Below, one piece after another: positions 5,159-51,245 of a DNA stretch of 64,000 nucleotides; position 1 is the stretch's first letter, and every line of letters starts with the position of its first letter. The notes under the pieces were generated by a model. It was not told the DNA's origin and ran no database searches. It saw nothing but the letters and a program-made list of their open reading frames with translations. The translations under genes and the position numbers were made by a program. Origin of the DNA: Acidobacteriaceae bacterium (GTDB lineage: Bacteria > Acidobacteriota > Terriglobia > Terriglobales > Acidobacteriaceae); the NCBI GenBank assembly GCA_003134435.1, contig PLBE01000053.1, positions 36,672 to 100,671 on the forward strand, in the 5' to 3' direction.

Positions 5159-7060
5159 ATGGCCTCCAATCAGGAAGAAGAAGTATTAGGGAAAGCATAC
5201 GACGGCCGCTTGATGCGCCGTTTGCTGACCTATCTGCGTCCCTACAAGTGGCACGTTGTGGTCGCGCTCGCGGCCATCATTCTGAAGTCCGTGGCCGACG
5301 TGCTCGGTCCCTTCCTCACCAAGATTGCCATCGATAAGTACCTGGCAAAAACTCCGAGCTCCCATTCCTGGATCGGCGATCGCCTGAGCCCCACTCCGTT
5401 GACCGGCATCGCGCAGATTGGCGGCCTTTACGTCGCCATTCTTATCTCCACGTTTACGCTGGAGTTCATTCAGACCTACCTGATGCAATGGACCGGCCAG
5501 AAAGTGATGTTCGATCTGCGCCGCCAGATCTTCCGCCACTTGCAGTACATGCACGTAGCGTTTTTCGACAAGCATCCGGTCGGACGGCTGGTCACCCGCG
5601 TGACCACCGACGTCGATGCCCTGAACGAAATGTTCACCGCCGGCGTGGTCTCGATTTTCGAGGATGTCTTCGTCCTCGCCGGCATCATCGGCATCATGAT
5701 GAAGATGAACTGGAAGCTGGCCCTGATCACTTTTGCCGTGCTTCCGCTCATCATTTACGCCACCCTGATTTTTCGCGACAAAGTTCGCGATTCTTACCGC
5801 CGCATTCGCACCGCCATCGCCCGCATCAATTCTTATCTGCAGGAAGCCGTGTCGGGCATGCTGGTTCTCCAGCTTTTCAACCGTGAGAAGCGCGCCTTCA
5901 ACAAGTTCTCCGAGATCAACGCTTCACACATGGAAGCCTTCAAAGACGCCATCATGGCCTACTCGGTCTATTATCCGGTGGTCGAAATCCTGTCGGCGAT
6001 TGCCATTGCCAGTATTATCTGGTGGGGCGGCAACGACGTGATCCGCGGCGTCGCCTCCATCGGCGTGCTGGTCGCCTTCATGCAGTACGCGCAGCGTTTC
6101 TTTCGTCCCATTCAGGACCTGAGCGAGAAGTACAACATCCTGCAATCGGCCATGGCCGCCGGCGAGCGCGTCTTCAAACTGCTGGATACAAAGATTGAAA
6201 TCACTTCGCCGGCGGTGACCAAACAGCCAAAGGGCCCGGGCCGTATCGAATTCGATCACGTCTGGTTCGCCTATAACGCGGCGGGGCAAGCCAGTGGAGC
6301 GACGGGCATCCCCGCCCAAAACAACCGGCTCGACTGGATTTTGCGCGATGTGAGTTTTGTCCTCGAACCCGGCGAGACCATCGCCGTCGTCGGTCACACG
6401 GGAGCCGGCAAAACCACTTTGATCTCGCTGCTGATGCGTTTCTACGACGTGCAGCGCGGGGCGATTCGCATCGACGGTGTCGATATCAAAGAGATGAATC
6501 TCGACGACCTGCGCGGCCGGTTCGGCATCGTCCTGCAGGATCCATTCCTGTTCAGCGGCACCGTAGCCGGCAACATCCGTCTGGGCACGGCCCGCATTCA
6601 GGATGCGGACGTGGAGCAGGCAGCGGAAGATGTCAACCTCGGCGACTTTATCCGAAAATTGCCCGGCGGCTTCCAGGAAGAAGTGCGCGAGCGCGGCTCG
6701 ACGCTCTCCACCGGACAAAAGCAGCTGATTAGTTTTGCCCGCGCTCTGGCGCACAATCCGAAGATTCTGATTCTTGACGAAGCGACATCCAGTGTCGACA
6801 CCGAAACCGAATTTCGCGTCCGCGACGCGCTGAACCGCATGGTGGAAGGCCGCACGGCGCTCATCATCGCGCACCGCCTCTCGACCATCCAGCGCGCCGA
6901 TAAGATCATCGTCATGCACAAAGGCCAGATCCGCGAGATGGGGACCCACCAGCAACTCCTCGCCCAGCGCGGAATTTACTACAAGTTGTATCAGCTGCAG
7001 TACAAAGATCAGGAGATCAGTGTGGCGCGGGCGCCCTCGCCCGCGAACGCCGATGACTGA
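5159..7060 (+). CDS. MsbA/LmrA-type ABC exporter, fused permease and ATPase
   Basis: The 633-residue protein has an N-terminal six-helix ABC membrane domain (about residues 30-330) and a C-terminal nucleotide-binding domain. Visible motifs are Walker A VVGHTGAGKTTL (about residue 412), the Q-loop LQDPFLFSG, the signature LSTGQKQLISFARAL, Walker B ILILDEATSSVD and the H-loop IIAHRLSTI. It is a homodimeric half-transporter that exports lipids, peptides or drugs. The neighbour is lpxB, which fits lipid A flipping, but multidrug export cannot be excluded. An insert of about 15 residues (AAGQASGATGIPAQNNRLDW) lies between the first NBD strand and Walker A. The last 13 residues (SVARAPSPANADD) are encoded by a copy of a palindromic repeat (7020-7047), so the natural C-terminus was replaced or extended. 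Confidence 0.92.
   Translation: MASNQEEEVLGKAYDGRLMRRLLTYLRPYKWHVVVALAAIILKSVADVLGPFLTKIAIDKYLAKTPSSHSWIGDRLSPTPLTGIAQIGGLYVAILISTFTLEFIQTYLMQWTGQKVMFDLRRQIFRHLQYMHVAFFDKHPVGRLVTRVTTDVDALNEMFTAGVVSIFEDVFVLAGIIGIMMKMNWKLALITFAVLPLIIYATLIFRDKVRDSYRRIRTAIARINSYLQEAVSGMLVLQLFNREKRAFNKFSEINASHMEAFKDAIMAYSVYYPVVEILSAIAIASIIWWGGNDVIRGVASIGVLVAFMQYAQRFFRPIQDLSEKYNILQSAMAAGERVFKLLDTKIEITSPAVTKQPKGPGRIEFDHVWFAYNAAGQASGATGIPAQNNRLDWILRDVSFVLEPGETIAVVGHTGAGKTTLISLLMRFYDVQRGAIRIDGVDIKEMNLDDLRGRFGIVLQDPFLFSGTVAGNIRLGTARIQDADVEQAAEDVNLGDFIRKLPGGFQEEVRERGSTLSTGQKQLISFARALAHNPKILILDEATSSVDTETEFRVRDALNRMVEGRTALIIAHRLSTIQRADKIIVMHKGQIREMGTHQQLLAQRGIYYKLYQLQYKDQEISVARAPSPANADD
7020..7047 (+). repeat. Palindromic repeat family A, copy 1, inside the 3' end of the ABC exporter gene
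   Basis: GTGTGG is followed by an 8-bp perfect stem CGCGGGCG (7026-7033), loop CCCT and CGCCCGCG (7038-7045). Copies at 23845-23864 and 45683-45702 keep the same stem and loop lengths with paired base changes. This copy is translated in frame as VARAPSPAN. Confidence 0.75.
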
Positions 7061-7082
7061 ATCGGTCCCGTGCCCGCCCCGG

Positions 7083-7088
7083 TACAAT
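7083..7088 (+). promoter_or_regulatory. TACAAT box 6 nt before the lpxB start (leaderless-type -10)
   Basis: TACAAT is followed by six bases and then GTG at 7095. The same spacing is seen ahead of the start codons at 40570, 41016 and 48758. No clear -35 hexamer is visible. A transcript starting 6-7 nt after the box would begin at the start codon. Confidence 0.45.
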
Positions 7089-7094
7089 GCAGCT

Positions 7095-8315
7095 GTGCAG
7101 ATTCTGATCTCAGCCGGCGAAGCCTCCGGTGAAATGTATGGCGCACAGTTGATGGAGTCGTTGCGCAAGTCTTTAGTCCATCCTGCCCCTGTGGTGACGG
7201 GGCTTGGCCCCGCCTCGACACAACCTGCACAGCTTGAGTTTTTCGGCGCTGGAGGAGAGCGCATGCGCGCCGCCGGCTGTGAAATCATCGTCGACGCCAA
7301 GGATCTGGCCGTTGTCGGCATCACCGAAATTCTCAGTCACCTGCCCAAAATCCTTGGCCTCTATAAGAAATTGATTCGCGCCGCCGATGAGAAACATCCG
7401 GCCCTGGCCATCGTCATCGACGCCCCAGCCTTCAACTGGCGCGTAGCGCGTCAGATGCGCCGGCGCGGCATCCCAGTCGTCTATTACGTCTGCCCGCAGT
7501 TCTGGGCGTGGCGCCAGGGACGCGTCAAGCTGCTGCGCAAGTATGTCAACCGGGCGCTGGTGATTTTCCCGTTCGAAGAGAAGTTCTATCGCGATCGCGG
7601 AGTGGAAGCGACCTTCGTCGGCCATCCCCTGGCCAATCAGCCCGCGCCGGCCGTTACGCGCGAATCCTACGCGACTCAAAACCAGCTCGATCCCGCGAAA
7701 CAGTGGATCACGATCATGCCGGGCAGCCGCCGCAAAGAAACGCGCATGAACCTGCCCACGATGCTGCTGGCGGTTGAGCGGTTGGAGATAGAGAGCCCCC
7801 ACGCGGGTTATGAATTTCTGCTTCCAGTGGCGCGCACCCTGGATGCGACGTTTCTCAGGGACTTGATCGCGACCCCGACAAAGTCGCGGCCAGCCTCGTC
7901 TTTACACCAGAAAATTCACCTGGTGCCCGACGCGTTGCCCGCACTGTATCACTCCCGCGCCGGCATCGTAGCCAGCGGCACAGCCACCGTGGAGGCGGCT
8001 CTCATGGGCGCTCCGTTTGTCATGGTGTATCGCGTATCCAGCCTGACCTATGCCTTGGGCAAGCCACGGGTCAAAGTTCCTTATTTCGCCATGGTCAACC
8101 TGATTGCCGGGGAGGAGGTTGTCCAGGAACTGGTGCAGCACAGGTTCACTGCGGAAAACATCGTTACCGAGATGAACAAGATCATCCCTGATGGCGCTCC
8201 GCGAACCCGCATGATCGAGCGCCTGGCGACGGTGAAGGCGAAAATGCAGGGGAACAGCAGTGCCGCAAATCCCCCAGAAACCGCGGCAAGGATCATCCTG
8301 AAAATGATCGGGTAA
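7095..8315 (+). CDS. lpxB: Lipid-A-disaccharide synthase
   Basis: The protein begins with the LpxB hallmark ILISAGEASGEMYGAQL, then FFGAGGERMRAAGCE, FWAWRQGRVK and FVGHPLANQ, and near the C-terminus ASGTATVEAALMGAPFVMVY. The enzyme (GT19) joins UDP-2,3-diacylglucosamine and lipid X in the cytoplasm during lipid A synthesis. The frame is open back to 7020; I chose GTG at 7095 because the family starts with M-x-ILISAGEASGE and a TACAAT box lies 6 nt upstream; ATG at 7053 is the alternative and overlaps the exporter stop. About 21 extra residues (26-46, SLVHPAPVVTGLGPASTQPA) interrupt the first helix-strand junction and contain a GC-rich inverted repeat in the DNA. At about 406 residues it is slightly longer than usual. 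Confidence 0.93.
   Translation: MQILISAGEASGEMYGAQLMESLRKSLVHPAPVVTGLGPASTQPAQLEFFGAGGERMRAAGCEIIVDAKDLAVVGITEILSHLPKILGLYKKLIRAADEKHPALAIVIDAPAFNWRVARQMRRRGIPVVYYVCPQFWAWRQGRVKLLRKYVNRALVIFPFEEKFYRDRGVEATFVGHPLANQPAPAVTRESYATQNQLDPAKQWITIMPGSRRKETRMNLPTMLLAVERLEIESPHAGYEFLLPVARTLDATFLRDLIATPTKSRPASSLHQKIHLVPDALPALYHSRAGIVASGTATVEAALMGAPFVMVYRVSSLTYALGKPRVKVPYFAMVNLIAGEEVVQELVQHRFTAENIVTEMNKIIPDGAPRTRMIERLATVKAKMQGNSSAANPPETAARIILKMIG
7170..7232 (+). repeat. Repeat-like in-frame insert within lpxB
   Basis: These 63 bp encode residues 26-46, which have no counterpart in the usual LpxB N-terminus. The DNA contains CGGGGC (7198-7203), a 3-nt spacer and GCCCCG (7207-7212), a perfect 6-bp hairpin. 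The length is a multiple of three so the enzyme frame is kept. Confidence 0.5.
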
Positions 8316-8362
8316 GCCCGGATATGGCCAGTCCAGCCAAAGACGCAGCCAAAAGATCCGCC

Positions 8363-8392
8363 AAAAGAAAAGAGACGAGCTAAGCCCGTCTC
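8363..8392 (-). terminator. Rho-independent terminator of the amino-acid permease gene
   Basis: On the minus strand GAGACG and CGTCTC (8387-8392 and 8372-8377) enclose a 9-nt loop and are followed by TTTTCTTTT (8363-8371). It lies between the convergent ends of lpxB and the permease gene. Confidence 0.65.
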
Positions 8393-8431
8393 CATGTTGA
8401 AGGTATGTTGAAGATCAGCCGGCCGGAAACG

Positions 8432-9838: not shown

Positions 9839-10166
9839 TTTCTATGGCTTCCTCCTCAGGCGACTCACTCTCACCACCGCGTCTCCCTTGCAATCTTTCT
9901 CGCGGCTCCCGGGTGAACTGCGATTTCCCGGACATGTCGGTGAAGTTAGTTCGCATTTGTGAGATTACGGGAAATTTCCACAGATGCAAGATTTTTTTGC
10001 GGAATTTTGAAAAGTTTTGTCAAGAAGGCCAGCGACGGAGGTAACCGCCGAACCACAGAAACACCCAGCGCGCGGCCCAAGGTGAAATTGGATGGACCCT
10101 TCCATGTGATCTGCGGTATAAAGATGCCCAATATCTGCGGTTCAATCAAGGTAGGAGGAATCAACT
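9839..10166. other. Intergenic region between divergent permease and cupin genes
   Basis: Besides the permease Shine-Dalgarno near its left end, this 328-bp stretch holds an AT-rich block (about 9970-10020) with a run of T and a TATAAA (10117-10122) that could be the -10 box of the cupin gene. No ORF with good start context was found. Confidence 0.4.
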
Positions 10167-10628: not shown

Positions 10629-10654
10629 GCTAAGAGGCGCCGCGGGCGGACAAA

Positions 10655-20919: not shown

Positions 20920-23781
20920 TTGGTGGTGTCCTATGGGTCGCCGGTAGTGGAGGATTCGCGAGCTGCTAAACTGGGCTGCTTGCCTCCGAAGAAGAAATCG
21001 CCGCCGCCGGTCAGGGAAGCATCTCCGCCGCCGGTTTCCGCGTCCGCAGAAGGCAGGGGGCGGATTTTCCTGATCGATACGATGTCGTTCATTTTTCGGG
21101 CGTATCACGCGATGGCGCGGCAGCGTCCGATGTCGACCAAGACCGGGCTTCCGACGGCGGCGACTTTTGTGTTCGTTAATATGCTGCGCAAGCTGCGCGA
21201 CGATTTTTCGCCGGAGTATCTAGCGGCGGTGTTTGATGTGGGGGCGCCGACGATTCGGAATCAGCAGGCGGAAGCGATTACGACCATCCGGAAGTTCGAT
21301 ATCAAGACGCAGACCTTCAAGGAATCGCAGTACGACGGTTACAAGGCGAACCGGGCGGAGATGCCGGGCGATCTGGCGCAGCAGATTCCTTATATTCGGC
21401 GGGCGCTGGAGGGGTATCGCATACCGATTCTGCAGCTGGAAGGTTATGAGGCGGACGATGTGATTGGAACGCTGGCACGGAAAGCGGCGGCGGCATCGTA
21501 TTCCGTGTTTGTAGTGTCGAGCGATAAAGACATGCTGCAGTTGGTGAACGACAAGGTGTGGGTGCTGAACCCGCCGAAAGACAATCTGATTTGCGATGCG
21601 GCGAAGGTGGAGGAATTACTTGGCGTGCCTCCGTCGAAGGTGGTGGATGTGATGGCGCTGCGGGGCGATTCCGTGGACAACATTCCGGGAGCGCCCGGGA
21701 TCGGCGACAAAGGTTCAGTGGACTTGATTCAGCGCTTTGGCAGCGTGGAGCAGGCGCTGGAACATGCGGCCGAGGTGGAGAAGAAGACGTATCGGGAATC
21801 GCTGCAGAACAATCGCGACAACATTTTATACAGCAAACAGCTGGTGACGATTGATACCGATGTGGCCGTGGGATTGGATGTGGCCGCAATGAAAATGGGA
21901 GAACCGGATGTTGAATCTTTGCGTGGGCTGTTCGCCGAGCTCGAGTTCACGTCGTTGCTGAAAGAGTTGCTTCCAGTGGTGGAAGTGAAGGATGGCGAGT
22001 ACGGGGAGATCAAGTCGAAGGCCGAATTCGAAGCGTATTTGAAGGGCCTGGGCGGGAGCGCGGCGCTGGCGCTGGCAATTCCGGCGGAGCAGGGGGAGAG
22101 CCTCTACGGCGACAGCAATGGGGAGGATGATGAGCCCCAGGCGGCGCAGTCGGGGTTTCTGGCTTTGCAGCCCGCGGATGCGGAGGATCGGAGTGTCGCG
22201 GTAACGCGCATTGCGATTTCGAATGCGGGTGGCGCTGGGGCGATGGTGGCGCTGGAACAAGCGGACCTGGCCGGCCGAGTAAGGGGCGTGCTCGAAGATT
22301 CGACTGTGTCCAAGACGGTTCATGATTTGAAAGCAGCGCTGCATTATTTTTCAGACCGGGGAATTGCTCTGACCGGAGTAAAGCACGATCCCATGCTTTA
22401 TTCCTATTTGCTCGATCCCACTTACTCTTCGCATTCGTTGGCGGAAGTCGCGTTGCGGAGATTCAATGTGAAACTGAGCGGCAACCTGGCGGAAGCGGCG
22501 GATGTGACCGGCAGGCTGGCGAGCGCTCTGCGAAAGGAAGTAGACGAGCAGGAATTGACGTCGGTGTACGAGGAAATCGATGCGCCGCTGGTGCCGGTGC
22601 TGGCGCGGATGGAAGACGCGGGAGTGAAGCTTGATCCGGCGGCGCTGGGCGAGATGTCGGTGAAGTTGCGGGGCGAAGCGGAAGGCAAGGCGCGCGACAT
22701 TTATGAGCGGTGCGGGCTGGAGTTCAACATCAATTCGCCGAAGCAGTTGGGCGATGTGCTGTTCAACAGGCTGGCGCTTCCGATGCCGGTGAAATATGGC
22801 AAGGGCAAAAAGATTTCGACGGCGGTCGATGTGCTGGAGGGATTGGCGGCGGATCACGAAGTTCCGCGGCTGGTGCTGGAGTACAGGCAGCTGACGAAAT
22901 TGAAATCGACATACGTAGATGCCTTGCCGATGCTGATTCGCGGCGAGAGCGGCCGCGTGCACACTACGTTTGGGCAGACGGGGACGGCGACGGGAAGATT
23001 ATCGTCGGCGAATCCAAATCTGCAGAATATTCCGATTCGGACCGAACTGGGGCGAGAGATTCGGGCGGCCTTTATTGCCGAGCCGGGGCACGTACTGCTG
23101 GCGGCGGATTATTCGCAGATTGAGTTGCGGTTGCTGGCGCATTATTCGAAAGACAAGCTGCTGGTGGAGGCGTTTCGGCGTGGCGACGACATTCACACAC
23201 TGACCGCGTCCCAGGTGTTCGGCGTGCCGCCGTTGATGGTTACGGCGGACCACCGGCGGGCCGCGAAGGTGGTAAATTTCGGAATTGTCTACGGGCTGTC
23301 GGCGTTTGGACTGTCGCAACAGTTGGGGATTGAGCCGGGGGAGGCGAGGAAGTTCATCGATGCGTATTTTGAAAAATACGCAGGCGTGCGAGCATTCATC
23401 GATGCGACGATCGAACGGACGCGGCGCGATCAGAAGGTGAAGACGCTCTTCGGACGCATTCGACCGATTCCCGACATCAACAGCAAGAACGCGACCCAGC
23501 GCGGGTTTGCGGAGCGGACGGCGGTGAACACTCCGCTGCAGGGAACGGCCGCCGACCTGATTAAGCTGGCAATGATTCGGATCGACGAAGAAGTCCGAGA
23601 GCGCGGGCTGAAGTCGCGGATGACGTTGCAGGTGCATGACGAACTGGTTTTTGAAGTACCGGAGAATGAAGTGGAAGTTATGAAACCGCTGGTGCGGGAG
23701 CACATGGAGAAGGCATATACGCTGGAGGTTCCACTGCTGGTGGAAATCGGAGTAGGAACCAACTGGCGGGACATGGAGTAA
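20920..23781 (+). CDS. polA: DNA polymerase I
   Basis: The roughly 953-residue protein has a 5'-3' exonuclease domain (RIFLIDTMSFIFRAYHAMAR, then SSDKDMLQLV and the H3TH RGDSVDNIPGAPGIGDKG), a 3'-5' exonuclease-like domain and a family A polymerase domain with motif A LLAADYSQIELRLLAHYSKD, motif B RRAAKVVNFGIVYGLSAFGL and motif C LQVHDELVFEVP. The exonuclease DxE and YxxxD residues are missing, so proofreading is probably lost, as in Taq and Bst polymerases. It removes primers and fills gaps. An N-terminal Lys/Pro-rich extension (about 45 residues) precedes the domain. No ATG is suitable: TTG 20920, GTG 20923, GTG 20926 and GTG 20947 are candidates. Confidence 0.95.
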   Translation: MVVSYGSPVVEDSRAAKLGCLPPKKKSPPPVREASPPPVSASAEGRGRIFLIDTMSFIFRAYHAMARQRPMSTKTGLPTAATFVFVNMLRKLRDDFSPEYLAAVFDVGAPTIRNQQAEAITTIRKFDIKTQTFKESQYDGYKANRAEMPGDLAQQIPYIRRALEGYRIPILQLEGYEADDVIGTLARKAAAASYSVFVVSSDKDMLQLVNDKVWVLNPPKDNLICDAAKVEELLGVPPSKVVDVMALRGDSVDNIPGAPGIGDKGSVDLIQRFGSVEQALEHAAEVEKKTYRESLQNNRDNILYSKQLVTIDTDVAVGLDVAAMKMGEPDVESLRGLFAELEFTSLLKELLPVVEVKDGEYGEIKSKAEFEAYLKGLGGSAALALAIPAEQGESLYGDSNGEDDEPQAAQSGFLALQPADAEDRSVAVTRIAISNAGGAGAMVALEQADLAGRVRGVLEDSTVSKTVHDLKAALHYFSDRGIALTGVKHDPMLYSYLLDPTYSSHSLAEVALRRFNVKLSGNLAEAADVTGRLASALRKEVDEQELTSVYEEIDAPLVPVLARMEDAGVKLDPAALGEMSVKLRGEAEGKARDIYERCGLEFNINSPKQLGDVLFNRLALPMPVKYGKGKKISTAVDVLEGLAADHEVPRLVLEYRQLTKLKSTYVDALPMLIRGESGRVHTTFGQTGTATGRLSSANPNLQNIPIRTELGREIRAAFIAEPGHVLLAADYSQIELRLLAHYSKDKLLVEAFRRGDDIHTLTASQVFGVPPLMVTADHRRAAKVVNFGIVYGLSAFGLSQQLGIEPGEARKFIDAYFEKYAGVRAFIDATIERTRRDQKVKTLFGRIRPIPDINSKNATQRGFAERTAVNTPLQGTAADLIKLAMIRIDEEVRERGLKSRMTLQVHDELVFEVPENEVEVMKPLVREHMEKAYTLEVPLLVEIGVGTNWRDME

Positions 23782-23872
23782 GTGCTCGCCTGATTCGGCA
23801 GCGGTATCAGGGGCTGAAGTGGCATCAGTAATGCGCAGGCTTTTCGCGGACAGGAGTGTCCGCGCCACACCA
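23782..23872 (-). repeat. Palindromic repeat family A, copy 2, directly after polA
   Basis: The element starts at the polA stop. Its core is the perfect hairpin CGCGGACA (23845-23852), GGAG, TGTCCGCG (23857-23864), followed by CCACAC. Its first 28 bp (GCTCGCCTGATTCGGCAGCG and following) resemble the sequence just after phoR (51191-51245). Confidence 0.75.
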
Positions 23873-41922: not shown

Positions 41923-42150
41923 TCAGTGGGTGCCGCCGCTCAACAGAGTGAGCGACCAGATGCTTAGGCGCAAGCTCTGCCGGGTGGTATCTCCGCCGCA
42001 ATGATGGCATCGTCCATCGGATTGGGCGAGCAAGATGCTGTGTTCTGTGGGAGCTGATGTCATTCTGCGACTGGGGAGGCGTCCTTGATTAAGACGTTTC
42101 AAACTTTCGGTCAATTCATCGAATGATTGCGGAGTGGAAAGCTTGTTCAT
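41923..42150 (-). CDS. Possible small protein, unknown
   Basis: The 75-residue frame MNKLSTPQSFDELTESLKRL ... contains a C-x2-C pair (RCHHCGG). ATG 42150 is preceded by GAGGA at a short 4-nt spacing. No family is recognised and composition does not strongly favour coding. It is convergent with rfbD. Confidence 0.35.
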   Translation of the reverse strand: MNKLSTPQSFDELTESLKRLNQGRLPSRRMTSAPTEHSILLAQSDGRCHHCGGDTTRQSLRLSIWSLTLLSGGTH

Positions 42151-42457
42151 CGGGTCCTCAGTTGGGATTGGTTTTGGGAATGCGCCTCAATTCCTTGAAC
42201 GTCGCGGTTAAACTACCGCGATGCGGCGTGGCGGTTCGATTGATGTTGCGCATCTTTGTTTCTGCTTCTGAGGACTGCAAGCGCATCGCCATTGACGGCG
42301 ACGTTTGATTAGCCTTTGGGACGTAGCGGCAGAAACGTAGGGTTGGCCTTGGCGTCGGTTGCATTGACTGCCTGTGCCGTGGCGTGGTGGGGCGTTATGT
42401 TGCTGTCTAATCTCTGCCACGGTGGTTTATCCTTAAAAATTCTTTGTGGGGACCAAC
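42151..42457. other. Intergenic region before the BNR-repeat gene
   Basis: No credible gene is seen in these 307 bp. A Shine-Dalgarno-like GTGGGGA (42446-42452) serves the GTG at 42458. The stretch has moderate A+T and several short inverted repeats but no clear promoter. Confidence 0.4.
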
Positions 42458-45400
42458 GTGATTCAAAGATTCTTGCGGATTGTATCTGTCATCCTCTGCA
42501 TTGTGCTTTTGCCGTGCTCCGTTTTGGCCCAGGATTATGATCCGGCGATGTTTCGGGAATTACACTGGCGGCTGATTGGCCCATTTCGGGGCGGGCGAAC
42601 GGTTGCGATCTCCGGAGTTCCGGGCCAGCAAAATGTCTTCTACATGGCTCCGAACAATGGAGGAGTCTGGAAGTCGACGGACTACGGGCGAACCTGGACT
42701 CCGATCTTCGACGATCAGCCGACCGGTTCCATCGGCGCTCTGGCCGTGGCACCGTCCGATCCCAACACGATCTATGTGGGAAGCGGAGAAGGCTTGCGTC
42801 GACCCGATCTGTCGGTCGGCAACGGGGTTTACAAATCCAGCGACGGGGGGCGAACCTGGCAGCATCTCGACCTGCAGGATGCGCAGCAGATTGCATCGAT
42901 CATTGTCGACCCCAAGGACGCCAATCGTGTTTTCGTTGCGGCCCAGGGACACCCTTACGGTCCGAACGAGCAGCGCGGGATTTTCCGCTCGCTCAACGGT
43001 GGTCGCACCTGGGAGAAGGTTCTCTATAAGGATGAAAACGCCGGAGGCATGGACCTGGTTTTCGATCCGCGTAATTCGCAGGTAATTTTTGCAAGCCTGT
43101 GGGCCTCCCGCCGTCCGCCGTGGACAACGGGTGGCGGCTACGACGGCCCGGGCAGCGGACTTTACAAATCCAGCGACGGGGGGAGTAGTTGGCGGCAACT
43201 CACCAGAGGGTTGCCCGGAGCAACCGAAGGCATCGGGCGCATCGGTCCCACGGTTTCCCCCAGCGATCCCGACCGCATGTATGCCTGGGTGAACGCGAAG
43301 AAGGGAAGCGGCATCTATCGCTCCGACGATGGTGGCGAAAGCTGGCAGCAGGTGAATGATGAAGAACGCGTCTGGGGGCGAGGCGATGATTTTGGCTGCG
43401 TGCGCGTCGATCCGCGAAACAAAGACGTGATCTATGTAGCCAACACTTCGACCTACCGCTCGACCGACGCCGGCAAGGATTTCACCGCCATCAAGGGCGC
43501 GCCGGGCGGCGACGACTACCACACCATCTGGATCAATCCCGAAAACCCGGACATCATCGCGCTGGCTGTCGACCAGGGGGCGACCATCAGCGTGAATGGT
43601 GGCCGGACGTGGAGTTCGTGGTACAACCAGCCGACGGCGCAGTTTTACCACGTGATCACGGACAGCGAGTTCCCTTACTGGGTGTATGGCGGGCAGCAGG
43701 AAAGCGGCTCGATCGGCACGGCCAGCCGCAGTGATTTTGGCGAAATTACGTTTCGCGACTGGACCACGGTGGGAGTTGAAGAATATGGCTACGTGGCGCC
43801 CGATCCGCTGCACCCTAATCTGATTTACGGTGGCAAGGTTACGGTGTTCGATCGCAGTACGGGACAGACAAGGGATGTTTCGCCGGTGGTTCTGCGCACC
43901 GGGCAGTATCGCTTTAATCGCACCGCGCCGCTGATTTTTTCGCCGGTGGATCCGCATGTACTTTATCTGGGATCGAACGTTGTGTTTTCGACTCGCGACG
44001 GCGGCAACAGCTGGCAGATCATCAGTCCCGACCTGACGCGGGCAGATCCTGGCGTGCCAGAGACTCTGGGGCCGTTTGTCGCGGACGATCCAGCGAAGGG
44101 CAAGCACCGCGGCGTGATCTATTCCGTAGCTCCGTCGCCGAAAGACGCCAACCTGATCTGGGCGGGAACGGACGATGGCCTGATTCAGGTGACCCGCGAC
44201 GGCGGCAAGAAATGGGAGAACGTGACTCCGGCTGAGCTGACGCCGTGGAGCAAGCTGGCGCAGGTGGACGCATCACATTTTGACACCTCAACTGCTTACG
44301 CGGCAGTGAACCGCTTTCGACTTGACGACCTGCGTCCTTATATCTATCGCACCCACGACGGCGGAAAGTCGTGGCAGAAGATCGTGAGTGGCCTGCCGCG
44401 GGACGAGCCCGTCAACACGGTGCGGGAAGATCCGGAGCGCAAGGGGTTGCTTTTTGCCGGCACCGAACGATCGGTCTACGTGTCGTGGGACGACGGCGAT
44501 CACTGGCAGTCGTTGCAGATGAACCTGCCGCCGACTTCGATCCGAGATCTGGTGGTTCATCACGACGATGTCGTGGTCGGAACTCACGGGCGGTCATTTT
44601 GGATCCTGGATAACATCACGCCGCTGCGGCAGTTCAGCCGGGAGGTGGCGGATTCCCCGGCGCATCTTTTCGCGCCGCAGTTGACGTATCGCGTGCGTCG
44701 CAACAACAATACCGACACCCCACTGCCGCCGGAAGAGCCGGCGGGACAGAATCCTCCCGACGGCGCGATGATCGATTATTTTGTGAAGACGCCAGTTTCC
44801 GGGCCCGTCACGCTGGAAATTATCGATGCCGCATCGGGGGAGTTGGTACGCCATTTTTCGAGCGCCGACAAGCCCGAAGCGGTAAATCCGAGAGATTTCA
44901 ACGTGCCCATGTACTGGGTCCGTCCGGCGCGAACCCTGTCGGTGGAAGCGGGAATGCACCGTTTCGTGTGGGACCTGACCTACCCCGCGCCCGAGGTGCT
45001 GACGCGTGACTATCCAATTTCAGCGATCTACCATGACACTCCTCTCTATCCGATGGGAGCGACCGTGCTGCCGGGACAATACAGAATTGTCCTTACAGTG
45101 GGGGGCAAGAGCTACAGCCAGATACTCGAGTTGAAGATGGATCCGCGGGTCAAGACCTCGCCGGAAGACCTGCGCCGGCAATTCGAATTCGACCGAAAAA
45201 TTGCGGGCGCACTTCACCAGGATTTCGAAGCGCTGCAACAGGTGCGCAGCTTGCGCGCGCAGCTAAAAGCGCTCGGGGGCAGTCCGGATGCGATCCAGAA
45301 ACCGGCGGCTGCATTGGAGGGCAAAGCCGCGTCCATCGAAGGCGAGGAAGGCGGGTATGCCACGCTCTACTTGAGCACGCCTGAAGGGCGCAGCCTGTCG

Positions 45401-45673
45401 CGCCTCAATGGGGGTCTGAACGCACTCGTCAGCGCTGTCGATACGGCCGACGCGGCACCGACGACGCAGCAATTCGCGATGTTGGTGGAATTGGAGAAGG
45501 CGCTGGAAGAGCAGTTAGCGGAGTGGGCACGGCTCAAGGCGAAAGATATTCCAGAGCTGAACGAGGGGCTGAAGAAAGCGGGATTGCCTCCGATTGATCT
45601 GGGGAAACCCGTGCCGGGTTGGGCCGACGCGACCAAGGCAACGACGCTGGATCGGGACAGGAACGAAGAATAG
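42458..45673 (+). CDS. Large secreted BNR/sortilin-like beta-propeller protein
   Basis: The roughly 1071-residue protein has a signal peptide (FLRIVSVILCIVLLPCSVLA) and many Asp-box repeats of the S-x-D-x-G-x-T-W type: STDYGRTW, SSDGGRTW, SLNGGRTW, SSDGGSSW, SDDGGESW, SVNGGRTW, TRDGGNSW, THDGGKSW. They build one or two beta-propellers (Sortilin/VPS10-like). The last 350 residues are a beta domain then a helical tail (PEDLRRQFEFDRKIAGALHQ). Relatives in acidobacteria are annotated as glycosyl hydrolases without proven activity. GTG 42458 with GGGGA upstream is preferred to GTG 42446. Confidence 0.85.
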   Translation: MIQRFLRIVSVILCIVLLPCSVLAQDYDPAMFRELHWRLIGPFRGGRTVAISGVPGQQNVFYMAPNNGGVWKSTDYGRTWTPIFDDQPTGSIGALAVAPSDPNTIYVGSGEGLRRPDLSVGNGVYKSSDGGRTWQHLDLQDAQQIASIIVDPKDANRVFVAAQGHPYGPNEQRGIFRSLNGGRTWEKVLYKDENAGGMDLVFDPRNSQVIFASLWASRRPPWTTGGGYDGPGSGLYKSSDGGSSWRQLTRGLPGATEGIGRIGPTVSPSDPDRMYAWVNAKKGSGIYRSDDGGESWQQVNDEERVWGRGDDFGCVRVDPRNKDVIYVANTSTYRSTDAGKDFTAIKGAPGGDDYHTIWINPENPDIIALAVDQGATISVNGGRTWSSWYNQPTAQFYHVITDSEFPYWVYGGQQESGSIGTASRSDFGEITFRDWTTVGVEEYGYVAPDPLHPNLIYGGKVTVFDRSTGQTRDVSPVVLRTGQYRFNRTAPLIFSPVDPHVLYLGSNVVFSTRDGGNSWQIISPDLTRADPGVPETLGPFVADDPAKGKHRGVIYSVAPSPKDANLIWAGTDDGLIQVTRDGGKKWENVTPAELTPWSKLAQVDASHFDTSTAYAAVNRFRLDDLRPYIYRTHDGGKSWQKIVSGLPRDEPVNTVREDPERKGLLFAGTERSVYVSWDDGDHWQSLQMNLPPTSIRDLVVHHDDVVVGTHGRSFWILDNITPLRQFSREVADSPAHLFAPQLTYRVRRNNNTDTPLPPEEPAGQNPPDGAMIDYFVKTPVSGPVTLEIIDAASGELVRHFSSADKPEAVNPRDFNVPMYWVRPARTLSVEAGMHRFVWDLTYPAPEVLTRDYPISAIYHDTPLYPMGATVLPGQYRIVLTVGGKSYSQILELKMDPRVKTSPEDLRRQFEFDRKIAGALHQDFEALQQVRSLRAQLKALGGSPDAIQKPAAALEGKAASIEGEEGGYATLYLSTPEGRSLSRLNGGLNALVSAVDTADAAPTTQQFAMLVELEKALEEQLAEWARLKAKDIPELNEGLKKAGLPPIDLGKPVPGWADATKATTLDRDRNEE

Positions 45674-45676
45674 CTG

Positions 45677-45702
45677 GTGTGGAGCGGGCGCTCCTGTCCG
45701 CT
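45677..45702 (+). repeat. Palindromic repeat family A, copy 3
   Basis: GTGTGG is followed by AGCGGGCG (45683-45690), loop CTCC and TGTCCGCT (45695-45702), an 8-bp stem with two G-U pairs. It begins 4 bp after the BNR gene. Confidence 0.65.
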
Positions 45703-45790
45703 GCTTATGCCGTTGGTGTTGGACTTAGTTGTTCAGGCGGGACCAAAACGGGCCGATCACAGCTATAAGAATCAAAGCAAAAGCAAGGGC

Positions 45791-45816
45791 AGCGGGCCGA
45801 GAGTGTCCGCTCTACA
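45791..45816 (-). repeat. Palindromic repeat family A, copy 4 (decayed)
   Basis: On the minus strand GTGTAG, AGCGGACA, CTCT and a partly matching right arm (GGCCCGCT) resemble copies 1-3. It lies 4 bp past the end of cca. Copies 3 and 4 occupy the convergent gap between the BNR gene and cca. Confidence 0.5.
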
Positions 45817-45819
45817 CGA

Positions 45820-47274
45820 TTAAGGCAGGGGGAACTGGCGGGCCAATAGTTTCAGCGCCGCGTCGTGGGAGGTGATGCGGCCTTCCAGTTGCGCATCTTC
45901 GATGGCGGTCAGAATTTCTTTGAAGCGGGGGCCGGGTTGATAGCCGGCTGCGATCAGGTCGCGCCCGGTAATCAGCGGAGTGGGCCGGATCGCTTCGGGC
46001 GGGATCGAACGCAACTGCTCGCGCGAATACTCGTAGGAGTCGAGATTGCCGTGGCTGGAAAGGCAGTCGAGGCGGTGCAATTCCAAGTGCTCGTCGAAGG
46101 CGGACAGGCGCAGAAACTTCTTGAGCGTCGATTGCTTCATGCGCTGAACGTCTCCAAAGCGCATGTGATTGTCGATTAGAGCCAGAATCTGGCCGGTCTC
46201 GTGGTTGGAGAAGCGCAGACGGCGGCAGACTTCGGCGGCCATTTTCACACCTACATCCACGTGTCCATCGAAGCGGATGCGGTCGGGCGCGATGCGGAAA
46301 GTAGGCGGCTTGCCCACGTCGTGCAGCAGCGCTCCCCAGGCCAGGGTCTTGGAACAGCCGGCAGGAAGCTTTTCGAGCAGCAAGAGTGTGTGCACGAAGA
46401 CATCGCCTTCGGGATGGTGCTGGGGGGACTGCCCGACTGCTTTCATCGCGGCGATTTCCGGCAAGACTTCGAGTAGGAGGCCGGTTGTATCGAGCAGTTC
46501 GAAGGCTTGGCGGGCGCGGCCCTCGGTGAGCATCTTCGTGAGTTCTTCGCGGACCCGTTCGCGGGAGACCTGTTGAATTTGGGGAGCAAACTTCTGGATT
46601 GCCGCCATGGTGGCGGGTTCGATCTGGTAGTCGAAGCGGGCGGCGAATCGCACGGCGCGCAACATGCGCAGTTTGTCTTCCGCGAGGCGGCGGCTGGGAT
46701 CGCCGATGGCGCGGATGATCCCGGCCTTCAGATCTTCGCGGCCGCCGACAAAATCCAAAACCTCGTTTGTTTCTGGATCGAGCATCATGCCGTTGATGGT
46801 GAAGTCGCGGCGCTCGACGTCTTGGCGCGGGTCTTTGGTAAAGCGGACATGGTCGGGATGACGGCCGTCCGAGTAGCCTACATCGGAGCGGAAAGTCGCC
46901 ACCTCGACAGACTTCTGCAGAGATGTCGGCAAGAACAGGTAGCGCTGTTTCAGCGATCCGCCCATCGCGCCCGGTAGGGCTCGCCCCTCGAAGGAGTCGG
47001 TTCGCGCAGGTTCGTCGCCTTCGTGTTCCTTCGTGTCCTTTGTGGCATCAGTGTGGAAGGGCACCAGAACGACTCCGAATTGCTCGCCTACGGCGAAGGT
47101 CTGGGGGAAGATTCGCATGACCTGCGGCGGAGTTGCGTCGGTGGCTACGTCGTAGTCGGCGGGTTCGCGGCCGAGAAGAAGATCGCGGACGCATCCTCCG
47201 GCGAAGTAGGCCTGGTGGCCGCGTTGACGGAGGGTGCGGACGATCTCCGTGGCGAGTTGTTTTGCGTTAGACAT
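45820..47274 (-). CDS. cca: CCA-adding tRNA nucleotidyltransferase with HD domain
   Basis: The 484-residue protein has the class II nucleotidyltransferase head (AYFAGGCVRDLLLGREPADY, then DYDVATDATP with the catalytic D-x-D), the RRDFTINGM motif (RxDF(T/A)IN), LRMLRAVRFAARFDYQIEPA and an HD domain (GALLHDVGKPPTFRIAPDRI). It adds or repairs the 3' CCA of tRNA. A roughly 49-residue insert (about residues 74-122) separates GVVLVPF from VEVATFRSDVGYSDGRHPDH, which are usually nearly adjacent. Confidence 0.93.
   Translation of the reverse strand: MSNAKQLATEIVRTLRQRGHQAYFAGGCVRDLLLGREPADYDVATDATPPQVMRIFPQTFAVGEQFGVVLVPFHTDATKDTKEHEGDEPARTDSFEGRALPGAMGGSLKQRYLFLPTSLQKSVEVATFRSDVGYSDGRHPDHVRFTKDPRQDVERRDFTINGMMLDPETNEVLDFVGGREDLKAGIIRAIGDPSRRLAEDKLRMLRAVRFAARFDYQIEPATMAAIQKFAPQIQQVSRERVREELTKMLTEGRARQAFELLDTTGLLLEVLPEIAAMKAVGQSPQHHPEGDVFVHTLLLLEKLPAGCSKTLAWGALLHDVGKPPTFRIAPDRIRFDGHVDVGVKMAAEVCRRLRFSNHETGQILALIDNHMRFGDVQRMKQSTLKKFLRLSAFDEHLELHRLDCLSSHGNLDSYEYSREQLRSIPPEAIRPTPLITGRDLIAAGYQPGPRFKEILTAIEDAQLEGRITSHDAALKLLARQFPLP
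46909..47055 (-). repeat. Repeat-like in-frame insert in cca
   Basis: These 147 bp encode HTDATKDTKEHEGDEPARTD, then a second part (SFEGRALPGAMGGSLKQRYL and following). The plus strand contains TTCGTGTTCCTTCGTGTCC (within 47021-47039), a direct repetition of TTCGTGT(T/C)C that looks like intergenic boilerplate rather than coding sequence. Confidence 0.5.
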
Positions 47275-47335
47275 CGGCAGTCGTAAACTAGGGCGTGTTC
47301 CTCACGGGTTTTGCGGTGAGGGATTCAAGCCTTCA

Positions 47336-47389
47336 GGGGCTAAAGCCCCCGGTTTGAGTGGCTCCAAACGGCGCGTCTAAAGCCGCGCC
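47336..47389. repeat. Two GC hairpins with CTAAAG loops between cca and tsaD
   Basis: GGGGC-TAAA-GCCCC (47336-47349) and GGCGCG-TCTAAAGC-CGCGCC (47370-47389) form adjacent hairpins sharing the (T/G)CTAAAG core. The remaining 47390-47459 contains GCGAACAGCGAACAG-type low-complexity repeats. Confidence 0.65.
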
Positions 47390-47459
47390 CCTTCAAAGAA
47401 GTTATGAAGCGCGTCGTCGAAAGCCAAAACAGCCAAGAGCGAACAGCGAACAGCTAATT

Positions 47460-48626
47460 ATGCCTGACGCGAATATCCTCGGCATCGAGAGTTCCTGTGA
47501 TGAGACAGGGGCGGCGGTGGTGCGTTCGGGACAGACGGTTTTGTCGAATGTGGTGGCTTCGCAGATAGCAACTCATCAGCCGTATGGCGGGGTGGTTCCG
47601 GAACTGGCGTCGCGCGAGCACTTGCGGGCGATTGTTCCGGTGGTGCGTCAGGCGCTGGTTGAAAGCGGACAAACCTATGAGTCCGTCGATGCCATCGCGG
47701 TCACGCAGGGGCCGGGACTGGCAGGCGCGCTGCTGGTGGGCATCAGTTTCGCCAAGGCTCTAGCCTTCGGGCTGGAGAAGCCGCTGATTGCGGTGAATCA
47801 TCTGGAGGGGCATATTCATGCGGTATTGCTCGAGCAGCGGCAACGAGAGAACGGCGAACTGCAGTTTCCGGTGCTGGCGCTAGTGGTGTCGGGCGGGCAC
47901 ACGCATCTTTATCTGGCACAGTTGCGCGAAGATCTCTGGACCTATCGCAACATCGGCCACACTCGCGACGATGCTGCGGGAGAGGCGTTCGATAAAGTTG
48001 CCAAGCTATTGGGACTGGGCTATCCCGGAGGCCCCATCATCGACCGACTGGCGGTGCATGGAGATCCGCGGGCGGTCAAATTCCAGACTTCGCAAATGAA
48101 GCACGCGGACCGGCGCGACCACAAGCGCGACAGTTCCAGACAGGTGATCGTAGAAGATGAAGGGCCACACTTCGATTTTTCCTATAGCGGAATTAAGACG
48201 GCGGTATTGCGCTACCTCGAGACGCAGCGCCTGACGGCTGCGATTGAGGCTCGCCGGCAAGCGCTGGCGGAGATTGACCAACCGGGGCTCGAAGCGGTTC
48301 TCGGCTTATGCGACCGGCAGACGCTCAACCTGGTGGCCTCGTTCCAACGTTCGATGGTCAGCGATCTGGTTTTGAAGACGCTGGCCGCGGCGCGCGAGTA
48401 TGAGGCGCGGACTCTCTTTGTGAGCGGCGGGGTGGCGGCGAATCAGGAATTGCGGGCGACGTTTGAGCGCGAGGCGGGAATGCAGGGGCTCCCCGTTTTC
48501 TTTCCTGCGCGGGCCCTTTCGACCGACAATGCGGCGATGATCGCAGCGGCGGCGTTTCCGAAGTTTCTGCGCCGTGAGTTTGTGGCGATGGATTTCTCGG
48601 CGGAGGCGGGGATGGCGCTGCGCTAG
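47460..48626 (+). CDS. tsaD: tRNA N6-adenosine threonylcarbamoyltransferase
   Basis: The 388-residue protein begins [20 protein letters not shown], with [16 protein letters not shown], the metal motif [41 protein letters not shown]-like [20 protein letters not shown] and [14 protein letters not shown]. It transfers threonylcarbamoyl to A37 of ANN-decoding tRNAs with TsaB/E partners, which are not in the window. Between the KF of the family and [11 protein letters not shown] there is a hydrophilic extra segment of about 20 residues. ATG 47460 is chosen because the upstream frame is repeat sequence. Confidence 0.95.
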
Positions 48627-48745
48627 GGGTCCGAGGAATCAGTTCCGGAATGAAGAAACCGCCGCGCCAGCAACTTAATCAGAGGCCAGCGCCGTAATGG
48701 AGCGCAGGGTGCCGGTGCGAGTACCGAATTGAAACCTTTCCCAGT

Positions 48746-48751
48746 TACAAT
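48746..48751 (+). promoter_or_regulatory. TACAAT box 6 nt before the phoB start
   Basis: TACAAT, GGTCGC and GTG (48758) follow directly, the same layout as for lpxB and rfbD. No Pho box could be identified upstream. Confidence 0.5.
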
Positions 48752-48757
48752 GGTCGC

Positions 48758-49450
48758 GTGAAACCGACGATCTACGTAGTAGAAGACGACCCTGATATTT
48801 CGCGACTAGTACGTCATCATCTAGAAGGGGCGAGCTTCAGCGTGCGGCTGTACTCGACTGGGAACCTGGTGGTGACCGACGCGGAGCGACAGCGTCCGGC
48901 ATTGTTCCTGCTGGACATTATGGTGCCGGGAAAAGATGGTCTGGAACTGTGCCGCCAGATTCGGCAGTCGGTGGCGCTGGCTTCGGTGCCCGTGATTTTC
49001 CTGACGGCCAAGAGCAGCGAGGCGGATCGCGTGCTGGGGTTGGAGTTGGGCGCGGATGATTATATCCCCAAGCCTTTTAGTCCGCGCGAACTCGTGGCCC
49101 GGGTGAAGGCGGTGCTGCGGCGTTTTGAGCGGCCGCTGCCGCCGCTCCCGACCAAGATTGATGAAATTCACATTGACCCGAGCGCGATGACCTTGACGGT
49201 GCGCGGGAAGCAGGTCCCGACGACGGCGACGGAGTTTCGATTGCTCGACCACTTCATGCGGCACGCCGGGCGCGTTTTCACTCGCGATCAGTTGCTCGAC
49301 TCGGTCTGGCGGGATACGGCTTATGTTACGCCGCGTTCGGTGGACGTTTATGTGCGGCGCATTCGGGAAAAGATCGAGCCCGATCCGGAGAATCCACGTT
49401 ACCTGAAAACGGTGCGGGGGGCCGGCTATCGCTTTGAGGTCGCGCGGTGA
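48758..49450 (+). CDS. phoB: OmpR/PhoB-family response regulator
   Basis: The 230-residue protein has an intact receiver (IYVVEDDPDISRLVRHHLEG, phospho-acceptor Asp in LFLLDIMVPGKDGLELCRQI, Lys in YIPKPF) and a winged-helix DNA-binding domain (VTPRSVDVYVRRIREKIEPD, then YLKTVRGAGYRFEV). Overlap with the histidine kinase gene (GTGA at 49447-49450) marks a two-component operon. The Pho assignment rests on the gene order with phoU 4 kb downstream and on PhoR-like kinase layout, so it is likely rather than certain. Confidence 0.85.
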   Translation: MKPTIYVVEDDPDISRLVRHHLEGASFSVRLYSTGNLVVTDAERQRPALFLLDIMVPGKDGLELCRQIRQSVALASVPVIFLTAKSSEADRVLGLELGADDYIPKPFSPRELVARVKAVLRRFERPLPPLPTKIDEIHIDPSAMTLTVRGKQVPTTATEFRLLDHFMRHAGRVFTRDQLLDSVWRDTAYVTPRSVDVYVRRIREKIEPDPENPRYLKTVRGAGYRFEVAR

Positions 49451-51174
49451 GAAGCCGCATTTTCTTTAAATTGATGTTTGTGTTTCTGCTGGTGATCGGC
49501 GCCACCGCCATCACTCTGCAGTTGACGGTGCACAAGGTGTGGGAGCGCACTCTGCATGAGCAGATCGAGCGCAATCTGAGGCAGAAGACCTTGATGTTCG
49601 CCTATCGCGTGGAGGCGGACCGGCAACACTCGCTGGCCGATATTACCTCGCAGGAGGGCCAGGCGGCTGGGGCTCGCGCCACGGTTATCGATCCCACGGG
49701 CAAGGTGCTGGCGGATTCGGAAGCGGATCCCAGCACCATGGAGAACCACGCGGGTCGCAAGGAGTTTGCCGCGGCACTGGCTGGGCAAATGGGCGTCGAT
49801 GAGCGCGGCAGTCGCAGTGTGAGCGTTCCATTCTTGTATGTAGCAGCGCCGGTTTCCGGAGGGGCGGTTCGATTGGCGTATCCGTTGCCCGAGATGGAGA
49901 TTACGGATCGTCCGCTGGCGGTGGCGTTGTTCTGGGGATCGCTGGCTGCGTTTGTGTTCGCGATGGCAGTGGCGGCGGCGGCTTCCCAATATGTGGGGCG
50001 GCGGCTGCAGCGCATCGTGAATTTTGCCGAGCGGGTGGCAGGTGGCGATCTGACGGCGCGGATTGCGTCCTCTTCGACCGACGAAATCGGGCAGGTAGCG
50101 GCCGCGCTCGATAAGACGACGCGGGGGGTGGAGGAAAGCTACGCTCGCGTGCAGACCAGCCAGCGCGAACTGGAAACCCTTCTGAACAGCATGCAGGACG
50201 CGGTGATTGCGGTCGATGTCGACGGGCGGGTGCAGTGGGCGAATCGGGGCATGGATCGGCTGCTGTTGCGCGCTCCGCGACTGAATGCGCCGTTGATTGA
50301 CAGCGTGCGCGACCCGGAGTTTCTGGCTGCGATCCAACAAGCGGCGCGGGAGCAAGTAGTGACTTCGGCGCGCTCGAATACGATCGCGTCGGGACGTACA
50401 TTCGATGTGACGGCGGCTCCGATGCCGGGAGGCGGCGCGGTCGCCGTGTTGCGCGATCTGACCGAGACGGAGCGAATGGAGAAAAGCCGCCGCGATTTTA
50501 TCGCGAACGTCTCGCATGAACTGCGCACGCCGCTGACATCCATCCAGGGATACACGGAGACGCTGCTCGACAGTCCGCTGGCGGACAATCACGTACGCGA
50601 GTTTTTGGAAATCATTCGCAAGAACTCGGCGCGCATGTCGCGCCTCACGGAAGATTTGCTGACTCTGGCTCGGGTCGAATCAGGGGAGCAACGCTTTGAC
50701 ATCCAGCGGGTGAGCACCGAGGAATTGCTGCAGGATGCGTGGGAAAGTTTTCGTGAGGTGGCGCGCTCGTACGGGGTCGAACTGGAGATGGAGAATTCGG
50801 TTCCCACGGTTTACGTGAATGCGGATCGCGAGGCCATCCATCAGATTTTTTCCAACTTGATCGAAAATGCGCTAAAGTACGCGGCGTCAGGAAAGAAGGT
50901 GATTCTTGGAGCCCGCGAATCGGAGATTGGCGTCGAATTCTATGTGAGGGACCTGGGACCCGGCATTTCCTCCGAACACCTTCACCGTCTTTTCGAGCGT
51001 TTTTACCGTGTAGATAAGGCTCGCTCGCGGGAATCCGGAGGCACTGGACTGGGGCTGGCCATTGCGAAGCACATCGTGCTGGCGCACGGAGGAACGATTC
51101 GTGCCGAGAGCGAACTGCACCACGGCTCGAGCTTCCTGTTTAACCTGACTGCTTCCGAGGCGAATGCAGACTAA
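49447..51174 (+). CDS. phoR: PhoR-like sensor histidine kinase
   Basis: The 575-residue protein has two membrane spans (FFKLMFVFLLVIGATAITLQ and FWGSLAAFVFAMAVAAAASQ) around a periplasmic sensor of about 130 residues. HAMP (GRRLQRIVNFAERVAGGDLT), PAS (LLNSMQDAVIAVDVDGRVQW), HisKA with the phosphorylated His in FIANVSHELRTPLTSIQG, and HATPase (NLIENALKYA, DLGPGIS, GGTGLGLAIAKHIV) follow. It phosphorylates the upstream regulator. The start is GTG 49447. The large periplasmic domain is bigger than in E. coli PhoR. Confidence 0.9.
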   Translation: MRSRIFFKLMFVFLLVIGATAITLQLTVHKVWERTLHEQIERNLRQKTLMFAYRVEADRQHSLADITSQEGQAAGARATVIDPTGKVLADSEADPSTMENHAGRKEFAAALAGQMGVDERGSRSVSVPFLYVAAPVSGGAVRLAYPLPEMEITDRPLAVALFWGSLAAFVFAMAVAAAASQYVGRRLQRIVNFAERVAGGDLTARIASSSTDEIGQVAAALDKTTRGVEESYARVQTSQRELETLLNSMQDAVIAVDVDGRVQWANRGMDRLLLRAPRLNAPLIDSVRDPEFLAAIQQAAREQVVTSARSNTIASGRTFDVTAAPMPGGGAVAVLRDLTETERMEKSRRDFIANVSHELRTPLTSIQGYTETLLDSPLADNHVREFLEIIRKNSARMSRLTEDLLTLARVESGEQRFDIQRVSTEELLQDAWESFREVARSYGVELEMENSVPTVYVNADREAIHQIFSNLIENALKYAASGKKVILGARESEIGVEFYVRDLGPGISSEHLHRLFERFYRVDKARSRESGGTGLGLAIAKHIVLAHGGTIRAESELHHGSSFLFNLTASEANAD

Positions 51175-51190
51175 GGACCCTCTGAACACG

Positions 51191-51245
51191 TACTCGCCTG
51201 ATGGGGCAACGGTATTCGTGCGGCGCGGGCTTTTCGAGGACGGAC
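51191..51245 (+). repeat. Degenerate copy 5 of the family A element after phoR
   Basis: TACTCGCCTGATGGGGCAAC, then GGTATTCGTG and GCGCGGGCTTTTCGAGGAC, parallels the element after polA (TGCTCGCCTGATTCGGCAGC ... GCGCAGGCTTTTCGCGGAC). It starts 17 bp past the phoR stop. Confidence 0.55.

Follow-up and report, generated by a model that had tools for sequence, protein, structure and literature searches.

Results

Hairpin copies near gene ends in an acidobacterial contig

The window, a stretch of 64,000 nucleotides from an Acidobacteriaceae bacterium (GenBank assembly GCA_003134435.1, contig PLBE01000053.1; C82:36672-100671 in the draft genome analysed here, which has 5.75 Mb in 261 contigs and is rated 100% complete and 4.4% contaminated), carries an ABC-transporter gene, a DNA polymerase I gene, a convergent gene pair, and a histidine-kinase gene, at or near whose 3' ends lie copies of a short hairpin repeat or a related sequence (Table 1). 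We identify these hairpins, with high confidence, as a family of repetitive extragenic palindromes (REPs) of the known bacterial kind, moved in trans by a REP-associated tyrosine transposase (RAYT), and we describe a longer repeat of ~102 bp in which some of the copies are embedded.

The initial annotation of the window had listed four hairpins, and a sequence check confirmed all four as written. On folding, copies 1 and 2 form a perfect 8-bp stem, and copy 4, which had been called decayed, has indeed lost an intact one. Beyond these, the best further covariance match in the window has an E of 1.1, and neither an Rfam scan (at the gathering threshold) nor a tRNA scan of the window returned any match. 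Copy 1 falls within the variable C-terminal tail encoded by the ABC-transporter gene, where its in-frame translation is VARAPSPAN; the identity of the gene is supported by a domain search. Copies 3 and 4 make up the one head-out doublet in the window (45678-45816), which resembles the REP doublets forming hairpins known as REPINs, and the segment 45677-45816 folds at -70 kcal/mol (z -6.2). All copies had been placed at or within 50 bp of a stop codon, which holds for copies 1, 3, and 4 and for a fifth, longer-range match (it overlaps a stop codon at 51174), but not for copy 2.

Table 1 Hairpin copies and repeat-unit tails in the window; E values for hairpins are from a covariance model built on 27 hand-picked copies (window copies 1, 2, and 3 among them), those for tails from profile R1
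Feature	Position	Strand	E	Context
REP hairpin, GGGCG/CGCCC type (copy 1)	7021-7045	+	1.2e-6	inside 3' end of ABC-transporter ORF (open reading frame) 5159-7060, 12 bp ahead of its TGA
Tail of ~102-bp unit, continuing copy 2	23773-23844	-	2.0e-9	profile match G000:C82:60444-60515
REP hairpin, GGACA/TGTCC type (copy 2)	23845-23869	-	9.1e-8	63 bp past DNA polymerase I gene stop
REP hairpin with G-T pairs (copy 3)	45678-45702	+	2.8e-6	4 bp after stop of gene 42446-45673
Head-out inverted REP doublet, REPIN-like	45678-45816	.		fills convergent gap
REP hairpin, broken stem (copy 4)	45791-45816	-	0.0023	3 bp past stop of minus-strand gene 45820-47274
~102-bp unit tail without hairpin (fifth match)	51172-51234	-	9.3e-12	after histidine-kinase gene; profile match G000:C82:87843-87905

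A genus-wide repeat family whose stem is kept paired

In the genome-wide search that the initial annotation had proposed as a check, the hairpin family proved real: the pattern TGTRGMGCGGRCRCTCNNGNCCGC (up to three mismatches) has 109 matches in the genome and only one when read backwards, although the 14-base head alone with three mismatches occurs in the window at chance level (83 observed, 83.4 expected). The repeat unit is 25 nt long, comprising TGT(G/A)G, an 8-bp stem, and a 4-nt loop. At two mismatches, 23 of 24 genomes of the genus hold 26-230 matches (controls 0-2), and in a family-level sample 56 of 150 genomes have a match at one mismatch.

Statistics for the window's own genome were computed on 91 of the 109 copies, with doublet halves counted separately. 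Among these copies the head reads TGTGG in 47 and TGTAG in 12, the others being variants. The outer stem pair occurs as C-G (61 copies), G-C (9), and A-T (8), so that it is Watson-Crick in 78 of the 91 unselected copies where 49.8 would be expected if the two sides varied independently, and Watson-Crick pairs are found at 11-20 in 79 copies (63.5 expected) and at 13-18 in 76 (60.4 expected). This excess indicates that the stem is kept paired, and it bears out, over many more copies than the window offers, the earlier suggestion of selection on the folded structure.

Copies also lie in a preferred arrangement. In the REP-bearing loci examined, 14 inverted pairs point head-out and one points head-in (partners at up to five mismatches; three overlapping or abutting pairs excluded), with 26-91 bp between the halves of head-out pairs and both halves within three mismatches in 10 of the 14. 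Random placement of 123 copies over the whole genome would give 0.12 head-out neighbours, an expectation that is genome-wide where the observation comes from REP-bearing loci only.

RAYT genes in related genomes are flanked by the hairpins

A search with PF01797 found IS200-type transposases in 22 of the 24 genus genomes, and 104 of 113 loci were analysed (eight lacked a recognised motif and one an ORF). A REP at up to two mismatches lies within 250 bp of 17 of the 104 RAYT-type ORFs, 11 of these ORFs have two or more copies, and 10 of the 11 fall in one clade. At 22 hand-chosen RAYT loci inspected for hairpin arrangement, in those of the clade the gene is often bracketed by doublets. The clade proteins carry the HUH motif, with H70/H72 and Y135 invariant across 11 of them; three scored 91.7, 86.5, and 78.9 bits against NCBIfam NF047646 (REP-associated tyrosine transposase; cut-off 80, which two of the three pass), and the match to E. 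coli TnpAREP 4er8 is at E 5e-8. Several related RAYTs show the arrangement seen in the clade with other GT[AG]G hairpins, and seven further RAYTs of the genus (L112, L116, L118, L173, L174, L176, and L122) are flanked, each by a GT[AG]G hairpin of its own that is unlike that of the window.

The association extends beyond the genus. In a wider scan of species genomes we took the best 80 of 201 related stretches, at least 12 of the 80 being contigs also present in the genus set, and found the RAYT to have GT[AG]G hairpins to its left and to its right, each no more than 400 bp away, in 68 of the 80 loci as against 223 of 2800 control windows; as the hairpin finder used here requires pairing, pair counts from these loci carry no covariation information. 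Divergence of the RAYT and divergence of its hairpin are correlated (Mantel r 0.54 over the 61 loci with a 24-nt hairpin, no permutation as high in 2000; r 0.55 over the 23 loci with the window's hairpin class, none as high in 5000).

Most of the 80 loci are from Acidobacteriota metagenome-assembled genomes (MAGs), and the set also includes records titled Planctomycetota, Deltaproteobacteria, and others. Almost identical hairpins, GTGGCACAGCCGCCC(T/C)CGGCTGTG, flank the RAYTs at L238, L247, and L261 (Planctomycetota or planctomycete titles), at L273 (Deltaproteobacteria), and at L246, L267, and L270 (Acidobacteriota). Such cross-phylum likeness points to common descent or to RAYTs having been transferred together with their REPs, and errors in MAG binning are possible as well.

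No close RAYT was found in the window's own genome

Several observations weigh against a RAYT-moved REP family. First, the window's genome, scanned with a model of the clade, yielded only distant RAYTs (best E 1.9e-16), where REP-flanked clade members in relatives reach 1.8e-66 to 1.8e-88, although most of these scored members were among the 11 proteins from which the model was built. Second, nine of the 24 genus genomes, that of the window included, have no clade match below 1e-40, and one of the nine, G019, holds 198 copies, so that copy number and RAYT presence do not go together, with the caveat that most of the assemblies are drafts. Third, another congener, G021 (95% complete), has only two copies, as against one for the control, and gave no match to the clade RAYTs. 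Finally, six RAYT-type ORFs outside the clade have a copy nearby, and in the window's genome most copies are single and doublets a minority.

The RAYT partner that had been proposed for the hairpins was therefore found in relatives, with no close counterpart found in this genome, and the REP copies here may be orphaned. They are probably now immobile, or else were moved by a RAYT that the species, or the assembly, has since lost; gene loss and draft-assembly gaps at repeat-rich loci are both possible causes of the absence. The genome's own RAYT-type genes L031, L032, and L034 have no family copy nearby at four mismatches. A further candidate partner, the C-terminal transposase fragment L033 with a REP-like inverted pair ~140 bp upstream, was rejected as it is of another transposase type and likewise has no family copy nearby at four mismatches.

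The RAYT-type ORF L034 (G000:C216, 1456-2139, plus strand) is of separate interest in that its HUH and tyrosine motifs are separated by a stretch with two copies of the peptide SQVSAQRTGANLGH, and the flanking DNA can also be read to give similar peptides. This looks like an in-frame insertion of another repeat family, and REP insertions of this sort are known for TnpAREP subclass 2.4 in the available text of PMC6006769.

Paired stem changes mostly mark two subfamilies

The initial annotation had read the paired stem changes among the window's copies as a sign of selection on structure, which stands, but the changes it compared mainly separate two REP subfamilies, each beside RAYTs of a different group. 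Hairpins of the GGGCG/CGCCC type adjoin the RAYTs L108, L110, L111, L113, L114, and L115, and those of the GGACA/TGTCC type adjoin L104, L107, L109, and L119 (at L115 there is, in addition, a GGACA copy at a distance of 714 bp). In the alignment L107, L109, and L119 are 72-83% identical to L104, and four aligned proteins of the GGGCG type 57-62%. Two subfamilies, each apparently fitted to its own transposase, would be the simplest reading, and the paired changes would then call for no role in gene expression, because recognition by the transposase suffices.

Alternatively, the paired changes could be compensatory mutations within one lineage of copies and not differences between subfamilies. 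The outer pair speaks for this, as its three Watson-Crick forms occur among own-genome copies that are mostly of the GGACA type, so that changes within a subfamily do also occur; the two inner stem types that the annotation had compared, however, sort with RAYT groups of different identity to L104, and we consider compensation as the general explanation unlikely.

Presence and absence of copies at orthologous sites

The copy at 7021 is at the same position in six of 16 comparable relatives and absent from the other ten, nine of which end their gene in ADD or ADN, either like genes with a copy or close to them in sequence. After the gene orthologous to that preceding the copy at 23845, no copy was found within 260 bp in any of 20 fully comparable relatives, and a 21st, partly aligned, has a weak match at three mismatches. 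The copy at 45678 has a counterpart at the same offset in one of nine comparable relatives, another having a copy 9 bp further on, and on the opposite side of the 45678-45816 gap the distance from the gene end to a copy is 16-22 bp, not 27 bp, in four of 21 relatives. This pattern of presence and absence is what a mobile repeat would give.

Some copies are embedded in a ~102-bp unit

GAAAA directly follows 21 of the 91 copies, and many of these share a longer common tail. A 65-base DNA query for the tail reached four places only, and we used instead a profile (R1) built from 14 tails, scoring the best 150 of 1109-2397 first-look candidates per genome. In the window's genome this gave 28 matches to the tail with an E no higher than 0.01 (loci L370-L397), and in the 23 congeners the tail was not found among the candidates scored, a zero that is strong and yet short of absolute because only the best 150 were scored in each genome. 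The profile also accounts for the fifth match, which the initial annotation had put at 51191-51245 as a longer-range match of the family. No covariance match lies there, and the fold is like that of shuffled sequence (z +0.77), so that it is no hairpin copy; in the profile search it emerged as the tail of the longer repeat that also contains copy 2, with the hairpin gone.

The unit of ~102 bp is bounded by imperfect terminal inverted repeats (AAGG..CTCTGA.CAAGT) and carries the REP hairpin immediately inward of its left end. Counted by eye, the two consensus ends agree, one read as the inverse of the other, in 16 of 20 bases (chance ~4e-7 before the choice of register); this consensus rests on 15 copies from 19 of the 28 loci, four having been skipped, and some of their left ends are poorly placed. 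The end pattern has 35 matches in the genome compared with nine for the reversed pattern, so about nine may be due to chance, and five copies have both ends and span 101-103 bp. No inverted pair of ends lies 0.5-3 kb apart among the 35 matches in this draft of 261 contigs; no transposase gene with the unit's ends was found; no target duplication was clear by eye; and four copies folded as RNA at z -1.5 to +0.7, which gives no support for an RNA structure.

As the tail reached about 28 places in a genome where no cognate RAYT was found, the REP may have hitched to another mobilising system. We therefore suggest, tentatively and as something short of an even chance, that a REP was captured in a new mobile unit, with inverted-repeat ends, an internal hairpin next to the left one, and a tail that is conserved, and so escaped dependence on its own transposase. 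An alternative would have this unit, in the manner of a miniature inverted-repeat transposable element, responsible for most of the recent spread here, with single hairpins as its decayed remains and not as REPs moved by a RAYT. The restriction of the 28 tail matches to one of the 24 genus genomes (among the candidates scored) and the matched ends and uniform length of the two-ended copies are in its favour, but GAAAA follows fewer than a quarter of the copies and the longer tail is kept by fewer still, across the genus the hairpins occur with no tail, and neither clear target duplications (by eye) nor inverted end pairs 0.5-3 kb apart were seen; we rate it as improbable.

Placement near stop codons

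Genes were called with a simple codon-usage caller built for the analysis, and 84 of the 91 copies could be classified (seven could not), with random positions drawn from the same REP-bearing loci and the window. Intergenic copies number 67 of 84, compared with 11.8% of random positions, and of the remainder 15 are wholly inside called genes and two at their edge. By type of gap, the 67 divide into 23 convergent, 37 tandem, and seven divergent, where the null shares are 16, 52, and 32%. Within tandem gaps the 37 copies are concentrated toward the upstream stop (mean relative position 0.305 versus 0.50; none of 10,000 permutations as extreme), and 22 of them lie within 30 bp of it versus 10.4 expected. 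The 3'-end placement noticed in the window is thus a genuine bias when set against random positions, but neither it nor this kind of REP is undescribed, as the initial annotation had supposed: for GTAG-tagged REPs, the available text of PMC3733652 reports convergent and tandem sites near stops as well as copies within ORFs and heads reading GTGG, and it gives the same gap and stop-proximal pattern for the REPs of P. entomophila and S. wittichii.

REP roles in mRNA stability and termination are on record (PMC6006769, as far as available), and the hairpins might accordingly be thought cis-acting mRNA 3'-end elements, e.g., terminators, RNase barriers, or attenuators, that are retained for their function, for which one could cite the stem covariation, the 3'-end bias itself (a stop is nearest for 49 of 67 intergenic copies versus 42% of random intergenic positions), and an orientation that agrees with that of the gene whose 3' end is closest in 40 copies and opposes it in 20 (p 0.013); yet four T's, as in the T-run of an intrinsic terminator, follow only two of the 91 hairpins and none on the other strand, a terminator scan of 42000-52000 gave 11 hits versus 9.7 expected with none at the hairpins, the copies wholly within called genes and the absence of the 23845 copy after its orthologous gene in relatives do not fit, and mobile REPs are known for the same 3' bias (PMC3733652), so that we give this explanation very little credence, although the hairpins may act in such a way secondarily.

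Discussion

The earlier identification of the hairpins as REP-type elements holds, given the tag plus hairpin, the dispersed intergenic copies, and the flanking of RAYT genes in relatives. By analogy with published enzymes of E. coli, Stenotrophomonas, and Marinomonas, from which we take the transposition chemistry, the REPs would be single-strand mobile DNA that is not autonomous and probably moves as a head-out inverted doublet (REPIN), and a RAYT, an HUH/tyrosine transposase made in trans, would recognise the GT(A/G)G tag together with the folded hairpin in single-stranded DNA and would cut and move it. Selection on the stem would then act through RAYT recognition, and gene 3' ends would be favoured as the places where insertions harm least. 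The ~102-bp unit, at about 28 places by its tail, has spread in this species, perhaps by another mobilising system.

The closest known systems, as described in the parts of the cited papers available, are the GTAG-tagged REPs and REPtrons (PMC2817692, PMC3733652, PMC6006769, PMC8266576), which share with the present family the GT[AG]G tag, the short stem-loop, many dispersed intergenic copies, hairpin-flanked RAYT genes, and RAYT and REP changing together. The present family differs in its occurrence in acidobacterial MAGs, its mostly GTGG head (of a type known for Opitutus terrae GTAG-20, PMC3733652), and the lack of a cognate RAYT found in its own genome. REPINs (PMC3116915) are similar in their head-out inverted, hairpin-forming doublets with compensatory changes, although doublets are only a minority of copies in the window's genome. 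For the ~102-bp unit there is a parallel in P. putida and P. fluorescens, where repeats that flank TIRYT genes combine a degenerate GTAG-1 unit with a neighbouring, unrelated stem-loop (PMC3733652), so that there too a REP has become part of a longer dispersed repeat; here, by contrast, the REP is internal to a unit with imperfect terminal inverted repeats (TIRs) of its own, found in one of 24 genus genomes. From the same phylum, TIRYTs are reported for Koribacter, Terriglobus, Acidobacterium, and Granulicella (PMC3733652), and class 3 genes with about 600 CnGA structures for Solibacter usitatus (PMC6006769); these too are Y1 transposases with dispersed structures, but with long TIRs or CnGA feet and not GT[AG]G hairpins. 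The window's hairpin sequence was not found named in the literature searched, a search with supplementary tables and most subscription journals outside it.

Overall, the finding is mostly ordinary, its fresh twist being that some copies sit inside a longer repeat not found in relatives, and that unit poses a small puzzle in its own right, namely a REP spreading without its own transposase. The family also serves as a warning that stem covariation and 3'-end placement alone are no proof of a regulatory RNA. Together, these observations add a well-populated RAYT/REP radiation in Acidobacteriota, for which the 2013 and 2018 surveys, in their available text, mention long-TIR or CnGA-foot relatives, and the RAYT-hairpin pairs with their paired stem changes form a natural dataset on how an HUH transposase reads a folded DNA hairpin.

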